This document shows positions 7,368-61,435 of a stretch of DNA of 64,000 nt, piece after piece; positions within the stretch are counted from its first letter, which is position 1; every line of letters begins with the position of its first letter. Location: assembly GCA_024278215.1 (NCBI GenBank), contig JAJRTR010000052.1:1-64000 (forward strand). Direction: 5' to 3'. Origin of the DNA: a bacterium (GTDB lineage Bacteria > UBP15 > UBA6099 > JAJRTR01). The notes beneath the pieces are model-generated. The model worked only from the letters and a program-made list of their open reading frames with translations. It did no database searches and was not told where the DNA came from. Made by a program: the position numbers and the translations under genes.

Positions 7368-7502
7368 GAGCCAATTGCAAAATTATGTTCGTAGCGAGGT
7401 CGAGCGAGATTGTTCAGAGCAAGGCGGAGGTGTAAAATCCTCGCAGGCGTACTTGTGGTGTACGTCGAGGACGATTTTGCGCCGACAACGCAGCTAAGGT
7501 AG
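7368..7502 (+). repeat. Dispersed repeat AGCCAATTGCAAAATTATGTTCGTAGCGAGGTCGA..., copy 1
   Basis: Copies at 41176-41312 (+) and 34562-34676 (-), degenerate copies at 4743-4806 (-) and 56900-56990. Confidence 0.8.
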
Positions 7503-7708
7503 CGGCATGTCAACAAAGAAAAGATGTAAGATGGGGCAGCGTAAAAACAAGGGCGGGGTACGGTGCCCCCGCCCTACACCTTCATGCGACATTACAAGCC
7601 TGACGTGACAGTAGTAGTAGAATTTATGGGGATACGATCCGGAATTAAAGGTTCAAATTTCAGTCATGCCCCCAAAATTCTCACAACATATTGAAAAACA
7701 CACAAGTT
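7497..7708 (-). repeat. MITE-like element with CTTGTGCGTTTTT-type terminus, copy 1 (other end truncated)
   Basis: Minus strand AACTTGTGTGTTTTTCAATATGTTGTGAGAATTTTGGGGGCATGACTGAAATTTGAAC...TACTACTGTCACGTCAGGCTTGTAATGTCGC...CTTACATCTTTTCTTTGTTGACATGCCGCTACCTT matches copies at 20028, 27122 and 29575. Confidence 0.85.
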
Positions 7709-7711
7709 TAG

Positions 7712-19978: not shown

Positions 19979-20027
19979 CACACATAATTGGTACGATCCT
20001 GTGTTCCGGATATAATGAACATAGCAT

Positions 20028-20210
20028 CTTGTGCGTTTTTCCATATATTGTGAGACTTTTGGGAACATGACTGAAATTTGACTTTTAATTCCGGATCGTC
20101 CCCATAAATTCTACTACTGTCACGTCAGGCTTGTAACGTCGTTTTTACGCTACCCCATCTTACATCTTTTCTTTGTTGACATGGTACTACCCCTTATAAA
20201 AACGCACAGG
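20028..20210 (+). repeat. MITE-like element with terminal inverted repeats, copy 2
   Basis: CTTGTGCGTTTTTCCATATATTGTGAGAC ... CTTATAAAAACGCACAGG; internal ACTACTGTCACGTCAGGCTTGTAA and CATCTTTTCTTTGTTGACATGG. Confidence 0.9.
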
Positions 20211-20375
20211 TTCAATTTATATTTGAACATCCGGAACCAAAAAGCCCTTTCGATGTATATGTAATAGTAAGGGAAGTGACAGAGCGGAAGCAGCTTCAAA
20301 GCTGAGTTTGACATTATGCGACCTGCTCGGATATGATTATAGCTTTCGGATGAAAGCACTCTGGTATTATTGATT

Positions 20376-27053: not shown

Positions 27054-27121
27054 GTATTGTTGTGACCGGAGCGATCCGGCGTCCTGCCTTCATCGAAAAT
27101 TCTCATGATGTCTTCCTGCTG

Positions 27122-27428
27122 AACTTGTGCGTTTTTCAATATATTGTGAGAATTTTGGGGACATGACTGAAATTTGACCTTTAATTCCGGATCGTGTCCC
27201 CATAAATTCTACTACTGTCACGTCAGGCTTGTAATGTCGCAAGAAGGTGTGGGCGGTGGCCCATATACCCTGCCTGCGCGTATTTCTCGCGAAAACGGTT
27301 TGTACAGGCACAAGTCGAGACCGGGGTACGGTGACCACGCCCTGCACTTTCATTGTTTTTACGCGACCCCCATCTTACATCTTTTCTTTGTTAACATGGC
27401 ACTACCTTTTATAAAAACGCAGTTTCAG
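27122..27428 (+). repeat. MITE-like element with terminal inverted repeats, copy 3
   Basis: AACTTGTGCGTTTTTCAATATATTGTGAGAATTTTGGGGACATGACTGAAATTTGACC ... CTTACATCTTTTCTTTGTTAACATGGCACTACCTTTTATAAAAACGCAGTTT. Confidence 0.9.
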
Positions 27429-28688: not shown

Positions 28689-29574
28689 TCAAGTACTCAA
28701 TGAAAGAAAATCACATTGTTTGTGTCTCCCGGAGCTGGTCCGACCTGCCATAGGGGGGATACCGGTTGTTCTTGTTGTAATCTGCGGTATACAGGGAAAT
28801 ATTTACAGTTAAGTATGTTCGAGGCCCCCATTCCGAGTTTAGCAAAATATGTAATAACATAATATAAATAAATATCAGACAGTTCCCGATTAGCTGTCTA
28901 TTACAGGAACAGGCCACTCTGAAGACAATATATGCCGAAGCAATGATTTCTATCCGGTTGCCCATTTCATTGGACATGCGTAGTGGACAGCAGAGAAAAC
29001 CACTATATAAAGGGATATTTAGGAATATCCTGTTAAAAAGTATTCTTTTACATATCAGAATATTGGACAGGATACGTTGATTGACATTTTATTAATATGT
29101 TAAATAGACGCGGAATAATTGATATTTTGAGAGAACTGCGTACAGTCACCGGCAGATAATTATCATGTTTTAATAATTAACGACATTATATGATGAAGCT
29201 ATGAATATTTATCTTATTTACAATATCCGAAGGGATTGTAGGTTGATAATAATGACAATAAATGAAGAATATGCAATGGCTGCAATTATGATAAACAAGA
29301 AACGATAATTAAAATATACCGATATATAAAGAATATATTATATTTTATGTAAAACCGAAACATAGTAAATAGGAATAATAAGCAGCCAAAATATGGAATT
29401 GAGATTAGATAGAGATGAGATTTATACAAAAAACATGACAAAGAAAGGGGGTTGCTGAGGGATATTTAAAGATGCGGAAAGATAATACATGTAAAATACA
29501 CGCTAACATAACAGCGTATGGCACACAGAGAAGGGAGAAAGGATAAGAAGATAAATATGTGAAAAGATTTAAAT

Positions 29575-29884
29575 AACTTGTGTGTTTTTCAATTTAGCAT
29601 AAGGGTCCTATTCCCCGCCGCTTGCGGCGTGATTAAAACCTTTGTTTTCTGATACCCCGTCCGCTTGCGGCGGGGGAGTTCATTGTGAGACTTTTGGAGA
29701 CATGACTGAAATTTGACCTTTAGTTCCGATCGTATCTACATATATTCTACTACTGTCACGTCAGGCTTGTAATGTCGCGGGAAAGGGCGGGGTCACCGCC
29801 CTATACTTTTATCGTTTTTACGCTACCCCATCTTCATCTTTTCTTTGATGACATGGCGCTACCTTTCATAAAAACACACTAGTT
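29575..29884 (+). repeat. MITE-like element with terminal inverted repeats, copy 4 (with internal insertion near left end)
   Basis: AACTTGTGTGTTTTTCAATTTA ... ATTGTGAGACTTTTGGAGACATGACTGAAATTTGACC ... CATCTTTTCTTTGATGACATGGCGCTACCTTTCATAAAAACACACTAGTT. Confidence 0.85.
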
Positions 29885-29900
29885 CAGAAATAATAAGAAA

Positions 29901-34497: not shown

Positions 34498-34561
34498 GCC
34501 TTTTCGAAGAACCCGTTAACGGTATTCGGCTGTGATCGGCTTCCTTTATCAACATCTGCGT

Positions 34562-34676
34562 TGTCGGCGCAAAATCATCCTATTATACAAGTTGCCTGCG
34601 GGGATTTTGCACCTCTGCCTTGCTTCCGAACAATTTCATTCGACCTCGCTACGAACATAATTTTGCAATTGGTGCC
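34562..34676 (-). repeat. AGCCAATTGCAAAATTATGTTCGTAGCGAGGTCGA-type repeat, copy 2
   Basis: Minus strand CAATTGCAAAATTATGTTCGTAGCGAGGTCGAATGAAATTGTTCGGAAGCAAGGCAGAGGTGCAAAATCCCCGCAGGC...GATTTTGCGCCGACAACGCAG. Confidence 0.85.
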
Positions 34677-41141: not shown

Positions 41142-41175
41142 CTAAAGACTGCCTTTCATTTCTCTCACTCCCCTG

Positions 41176-41312
41176 AGCCAATTGCAAAATTATGTTCGAA
41201 GCGAGGTCGAACGAAATTATTCAGAAGCAAGACGGAGGTGCAAAATCCCCGCAGGCGTACTTGCAGAGTACGTTGAGGAAGATTTTGTGCCGACAACGCT
41301 GCTGTTGACAAT
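41176..41312 (+). repeat. AGCCAATTGCAAAATTATGTTCG...-type repeat, copy 3
   Basis: Extended match to 7368-7502. Confidence 0.85.
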
Positions 41313-41352
41313 TGCAGCCGACCGCAGGCGAATCAGAATTCTGCAATCGGCT
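41307..41352. repeat. AATTGCAGCCGACCGCAG...GAATCAGAATT repeat, copy 2
   Basis: Matches 818-863 and 61204-61251. Confidence 0.75.
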
Positions 41353-43626: not shown

Positions 43627-43957
43627 CTTTCTTTCCTATCCCGGCATAGCCGGAACCAAACCGGCTCGTTCGTGACCGAATAAAAGCTGTTTGTACACGA
43701 CACACTGGTAACAGTATTATGCAGCAATCTTTTGCCTTTTACAAAAACGCACAAGTTCGGATATTATATCTTCATACTCACATTAATATCAACCTTCAAT
43801 CGTCGTTGCCGATCAAGAAGCACAAGCTTTTTCGTGACAGTTCGCAGTTGGCTTCGCTTCAGAATTCCCCGCATAGCCCGGCTTTCTCACAAAGAAATCC
43901 GGATCGTGTTCCGGAGTTCAGGCATGGTATTGACTGAATGCTCTACGTTCATTACTC

Positions 43958-53448: not shown

Positions 53449-53697
53449 GGTCTATAGTTTGAGCACGGCACACAGAGGTTCATCGTTCCTGCCATCTATC
53501 TATTTTTCATCGTTCCCAGGGTCTTCATTGGAAACGCCTTTACTGGAAGTTCCAGCTTCCACCAATCTCTTTTTCATCGTTTTTTTACCATCCTGCGTAG
53601 CATTTCATATGTTCAGGCAGGGTACGGTGACCCCGCCTACACTAAAAACGTCAATACAAAGTTGATTCGTGTATAATTATCCGTTTTCAATTCTTAT

Positions 53698-56433: not shown

Positions 56434-56489
56434 AAAGCGCTCTCCCTTACCGTCACGCGACAGGTTCTGTGTTTAGTATTAGTTATTAA

Positions 56490-56595
56490 AACTGTGCGTT
56501 TTTCGATATCGTGTGTAAATTTCGTGGACATGACCGGGATTTGCCCTTATCGTGTCCCCGGAAATACAATTGCCTTTTACAAAAACGCACAAGTT
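56490..56595 (+). repeat. MITE-like element, short copy 5 with both terminal inverted repeats
   Basis: CTGTGCGTTTTTCGATATCGTG...GTGGACATGACCGGGATTTG...CCTTTTACAAAAACGCACAAGTTT. Confidence 0.75.
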
Positions 56596-57235
56596 TCAGT
56601 TAGTTACGCATTACGGTAATACTTTGACATGTGAGCGCCAGCCTGAAAGCAAACTCCTCGGGGTTAGCATACCCCGGAATGCAACACTTTAAACATGACG
56701 GCACAATTAACTAATTGTCAAAACCAACAGCACACTATGTGTACCGTACGCCGCCCAATACATAAATATAGTAGTAGTTTTTTGCTTCAATATATACCAA
56801 TCCACAGACTGCACGTGAACGTTATATAAATCCACTATTCTTTATATCGGAATTATTAAGAAAAAGTTTAGTATTTATTTCAAAAAGTGTTGCTTACCAG
56901 CCAATTGCAAATTATGTTTGCAGCGAGAGAACGGACGGAATTGCTCCGGGCAAGACGGATGCAAAGAAACGCAATGTCCACGACATGCTCCCGAAAGTGG
57001 CGTGGCCCGCATATTTCATAAATCCGGGGTACCCCTGGGAGGACGACTTTACGGTAAAGTTTTGTCGCCGATCAGGTTTTTATGGATACGGGAGATCTCA
57101 GCTTGCGTGTTCCGGATGAGAGCCTCGGAACGATGAAAAGCGGGTTCCGGTTCTCATCTCATTTCCAGAGATCGGCAGCGATGTAATAACGGATGAGACT
57201 TTCCCACTCGCCGACAAGCATATATAATCTGCACT

Positions 57236-61176: not shown

Positions 61177-61251
61177 CCCGCATATTTCACCAATGCGGGC
61201 TATGTCCAATTGCAGCCGACCGCAGCAGAATCAGACTTTTGCAAATGGCTC
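61177..61251. repeat. CCCGCATATTTCACCAATGCGGG hairpin joined to AATTGCAGCCG-type repeat
   Basis: Matches 25366-25388 and 818-863 families. Confidence 0.8.
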
Positions 61252-61435
61252 TATTGAACGAATGATGAATGCAATCTATAATGTGTTATTATTGAACTTG
61301 TGCGTTCAACATGTTTATTACGCATAAGCAGGAGATTCTTCATGTCCGTCTCGGAATGACACACTTCCATCACGCAGGTGGTAATGCTGAAAGAAGTGAA
61401 GCATCTCGCTTTTCAAAAACGTAAAGGTCCGGATT

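Follow-up and report, generated by a model that had tools for sequence, protein, structure and literature searches.

Elements in the Window

The window, which is the whole 64-kb stretch of DNA analysed and constitutes contig 22 of an assembly of 4.55 Mb (207 contigs, 95% complete), contains five related intergenic elements. They had been proposed in a first-pass annotation as a MITE-like family, and the enrichment of their end motif together with annotation against the family consensuses shows that all five are real. As shown in Table 1, these copies consist of a basic element, O, with or without a second element, I, and a third family, G, occurs in the same DNA. The end motif CTTGTGCGTTTTT matched the window 11 times with up to two mismatches, where 2.2 matches were expected and none of 100 shuffles reached 11.

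Table 1. Repeat elements and remnants located in the window
Feature	Positions	Strand	Basis and remarks
O+I composite, right end missing	7500-7711	-	left arm of O at 7617-7711 (94%), with pieces of I at 7552-7613 and 7500-7548
O+I composite that retains both ends but has lost the hairpin region of I	20023-20215	+	consensus annotation
Full-length O+I composite, both hairpins	27119-27428	+	consensus annotation
O+I composite, interrupted near left end	29572-29887	+	consensus annotation
Solo right end of O, remnant	43732-43758	+	consensus annotation; 27 bp, 100% to consensus
I fragment, one REP-like hairpin	53607-53637	-	consensus annotation
Left TSD TTAGTTA of the 56486 copy	56479-56485	.	flank alignment
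Basic O without I, the form that I inserted into	56486-56599	+	consensus annotation; fold z -3.8 vs shuffles
Right TSD TTAGTTA of the 56486 copy	56600-56606	.	flank alignment; one base off the common register
Possible end remnant TTGAACTTGTGCG	61292-61304	+	13 bp; close to a partial G element; too short to be sure
G matches	41175-41352, 34524-34672, 7368-7499, 811-863, 61199-61251		consensus annotation

O is an imperfect palindrome of 104-122 bp, which occurs in two subtypes with the inner arms TTTTTCRATATNNTGTG and TTTTTGAAACATGYGCAG. I is approximately 195 bp long, has its own ends, TAGTGTCRTGTCAAC, and carries in its middle two REP-like GC hairpins, GGGCGGGGTCACCGTACCCCGCC, in opposite orientation; in some copies one is present, or none after deletion. 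The GC-rich blocks noticed earlier in the variable middle are these hairpins and belong to I, an assignment that the first reading had missed, together with the exact ends of O, the nesting of I inside O and the family G. The range of lengths, ascribed before to gain or loss of the core, is mostly due to the presence or absence of the nested I and to deletions in its hairpin region, and not to variation in the core of one element.

The 3' part of the copy at 7500-7711 stops against a partial G element. In the copy at 20023-20215 a clear 7-bp target-site duplication (TSD) is absent; TGAACAT occurs on both sides, the right one 8 bp out of register. The copy at 27119-27428 has lost about 3 bp at its right end (CGCA---GTTTCAG) and has no visible TSD. 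The copy at 29572-29887 has apparently lost its left terminal 5 bp and has the short direct repeat AAATAA at both sides; its left arm is interrupted at about 29594-29700 by an unrelated GC-rich repeat of ~100 bp, CCCCGCCGCTTGCGGCG...CCGCTTGCGGCGGGG, which partly explains its length. As for the two half-sites reported previously, the first is an exact right end, and the second, near 61298, is a marginal match to the end only, which may be a remnant or a chance match.

Termini and Target-Site Duplications

The flanks were aligned for 27 copies with two recognisable ends. The terminal inverted repeats (TIRs) described earlier are real, and the true termini of O, CTGAACTTGTGCG...CGCACAAGTTCAG (TIR of 13-18 bp), reach 5 bp further out (CTGAA/TTCAG). 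Among windows of at least 7 bases, the best-scoring register comprised 7 bases and began, on either side, 5 bases out from CTTG. In this exact register, 7-bp direct repeats were found at an identity of at least 6/7 in 9 of the 27 copies, compared with 0.85 expected; over 10,000 re-pairings of the flanks the mean was 0.85 and the maximum 6, and none reached the observed summed identity. When the right end was allowed to slip by up to 3 bases, 12 of the 27 copies matched. The duplicated 7-mers are A/T-rich (TAAATAA, ATTATTA, CTGTTTA, AATCTTA, GATATTA and TTAGTTA). Approximately half of the two-ended copies have no clear TSD, presumably as a result of decay. Since the 7-bp direct repeats flank the true termini far above chance, the elements are transposition products.

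The genome-wide search proposed in the first-pass annotation gave 104 matches to the CTTGTGCGTTTTT end with at most one mismatch, where the reversed control gave 14; for the terminal 13-mer CTKAACTTGTGCG the corresponding counts were 98 and 7. The majority of TIR sites in the genome are solo ends. O sequence was found at ~80 loci in the genome DNA retrieved, 27 of them being O+I composites. The annotated extents of O and of O+I (up to ~310 bp) are too small for a transposase, and coding capacity is absent. The elements thus have four of the features that define a MITE, being short and without a transposase gene, with TIRs, a fixed-length TSD and dispersed copies at unrelated intergenic sites, which largely bears out the MITE-like reading. 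An autonomous partner would strengthen the MITE label, which can however be given without one.

Nesting, Decay and Source of the Family

In the copies examined, I lies at one fixed junction inside O, TTCTAC/TACTGTCACGTC ... GGCACTA/CCTTTTATAAAAACGC. Compact O elements without I at that junction occur on contigs C59 and C190 (C190:24887; C-numbers denote contigs of the same genome) and at 56486 in the window, and as many as 18 further sites, some with only a fragment, have I but no O (for example C192, C199:15732, C170:31470, C107:12956 and C182). No clear TSD of I itself was definable. The composites at C6, C126, C90, C187 and C180 are at separate loci with separate TSDs (GATATTA, AATCTTA, CTGTTTA, TAAATAA and ATTATTA, respectively). 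The shared junction of I combined with these different TSDs indicates that O+I most likely spread as a unit, after I had been captured once by O, an order suggested by the shared junction. At L007 (C14:6374-), L018 (C66:923+), L110 (C137:3903-) and L113 (C147:6908+), the ends of O surround or adjoin another palindromic repeat, GAGATACTTCGCTTCGTT...ATTCCGAGCGGAGCC, which is perhaps a further nested family.

G is a MITE of 178 bp with the ends GAGCCAATTGCAAAATT...AATTTTGCAATTGGCTC, which has 66 matches in the genome DNA retrieved and an exact 4-bp TSD in 20 of 33 near-full copies. It lies inside or beside O and I: the O copy at C130 is interrupted by G with the duplication TTAT, and I is interrupted at C151 (TTGT) and C199 (TTAC). 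At C199, joining the two G flanks with a single TTAC restores the consensus of I (CCCATC-TTAC-GTCTTTTC). In the C126 copy, a MITE takes the place of the middle part; its ends, CAATACCGTTCAGTTAAG, also bound MITEs of ~91 bp at C48, C151 and C160. An IS4-type element with CAATACCGTTCAGTTAAG ends, L134:1019-2516 (C200:26579-28074), is probably complete and is the probable autonomous partner of the CAATACCGTTCAGTTAAG-ended MITE.

A full transposon with the ends of O, for which the first-pass annotation had proposed to look, was not found in the searches of this genome, in which the assembly is fragmented and a subset of transposase families was covered. No inward TIR pair 0.5-9 kb apart in the genome DNA retrieved was seen to enclose a transposase, and the widest-spaced pairs inspected (C178 and C190) contain host genes only. 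Transposases of the IS256 (PF00872), rve (PF00665) and IS982 (PF13612) types are absent from the genome. The three DDE_Tnp_1 genes all lack O ends; one of them, the IS4-type transposase in L134, has different ends, CAATACCGTTCAGTTAAG, and was rejected as the partner of O. None of the six Y1_Tnp genes lies inside an element with O ends; the one at L132 is alone in having such ends nearby, and these belong to a compact O element. IS982 was rejected as the source family, since its transposase is absent here and its ends are 5'-AC (PMC7335449).

Continued mobility of O, driven by an active autonomous element that escaped notice in a gap of the assembly or at the end of a contig, is very unlikely. 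In its favour, the assembly is split into 207 contigs and is 95% complete, and repeated IS copies often land in assembly gaps. Against it, besides the results on end pairs and transposase genes given above, near-identical copies are lacking, as the pairwise identity of the composites compared has a median of 87% and reaches 95% at best. We read the O family as old and inactive; because its copies are 5-20% diverged and many are broken, it looks extinct.

A regulatory or RNA element, such as a 5'-UTR motif or a processed hairpin like ERIC, that selection has maintained and that is not a transposon relic, is very unlikely. The single-strand fold is better than that of shuffled sequence (z -5.3, -3.3 and -3.8), TATAAT-like sequence occurs in some flanks, and 44 of 69 solo ends face a same-strand gene, a weak bias to which we give no interpretation. 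Against this stand the TSDs and the truncation or interruption of many copies. In a small alignment of 12 copies, stem covariation did not exceed that of shuffled alignments: both partners had changed in 4 pairs, a number equalled in 97 of 500 shuffles. A promoter or 5'-UTR role was rejected: the flanks are A/T-rich beside the ends, but the upstream -10-like hexamers have no fixed position or spacing, and some copies (C5, C6, C90 and C180) sit where the neighbouring genes converge. A crude ORF-based survey placed 88 of 100 end sites in intergenic intervals, of convergent, tandem and divergent type. The copies are therefore not confined to the same conserved genes without TSDs, a pattern named beforehand as favouring regulation. 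An Rfam search of the window matched only a tRNA.

The reading that we hold with high confidence is that of a decayed MITE family, in which O moved in trans, I was captured once, and copies were later broken by G and by an IS4-type MITE. O would have been moved by a transposase that recognised ends of the form CTGAACTTGTGCG(TTTTT) and made cuts staggered by 7 bp in A/T-rich DNA between genes; we infer this enzyme, and the ends and TSDs are observed. I would have inserted once, into one O copy, after which O+I would have been mobilised as a unit through the O ends. Hairpin deletions and the insertions of G and the IS4-type MITE would then have produced the truncated copies and solo ends, and the autonomous transposon was probably lost from the genome or is unassembled. 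For a bacterial lineage that has been poorly sampled, this reading accounts for a considerable share of the repeats between genes, and the order of the insertions can be read from them, with O first, I inserted into it next and G last. There is also an indication that one MITE can bring a second to new sites, and a caution for annotation that weak ORFs and stem-loops annotated in such regions are transposon debris.

Distribution and Comparison with Known Systems

O was absent from all six other genomes of the same order, the nearest of which belong to other families. An exact 18-mer scan of one genome per species over 84,980 species gave 12 single matches in unrelated species, none with a second end, which is about the number expected by chance (estimated at ~15). 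Four matches in viral contigs resembled coding sequence and included no plausible element. It is conceivable, though doubtful, that O was left behind by an IS family not yet described, with CTGAACTTGTGCG ends and a 7-bp A/T-rich TSD and limited to this lineage, and that in O+I one MITE captured another and spread it.

The GC-rich hairpins of I resemble the paired REPs of the REP/BIME palindromes of RAYT systems, but they ride inside I; no such hairpins were found within about 1.5 kb of the six Y1_Tnp genes, so that the association of REPs with a RAYT gene is not seen here. In the genome G002 of the same order, paired REP-like hairpins, GGGCGGGGTCACCGCACCCCGCC, were observed at L061 and L062, those at L062 just after a reading frame that ends like a RAYT (..YLRMNPVRAKLV..), as judged from its C-terminus by eye.

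ERIC/IRU, Correia/NEMIS and RUP (PMC2229807) share with O a length of about 100-200 bp, a TIR, a TSD, a long stem-loop and an intergenic location, whereas O differs in sequence, in termini that begin with CTGAA rather than TA, and in its 7-bp TSD. Bacterial and archaeal MITEs, the non-autonomous derivatives of IS elements, are likewise short, non-coding, palindromic and intergenic, with TIRs, TSDs and dozens of copies; O differs in that no partner IS was found, and it is thus not assignable to an IS family. Nested MITE insertions are known as 'Russian dolls' (PMC3852290). The repeats described here thus form a new family, but one of an ordinary and well-known kind among bacterial repeats.
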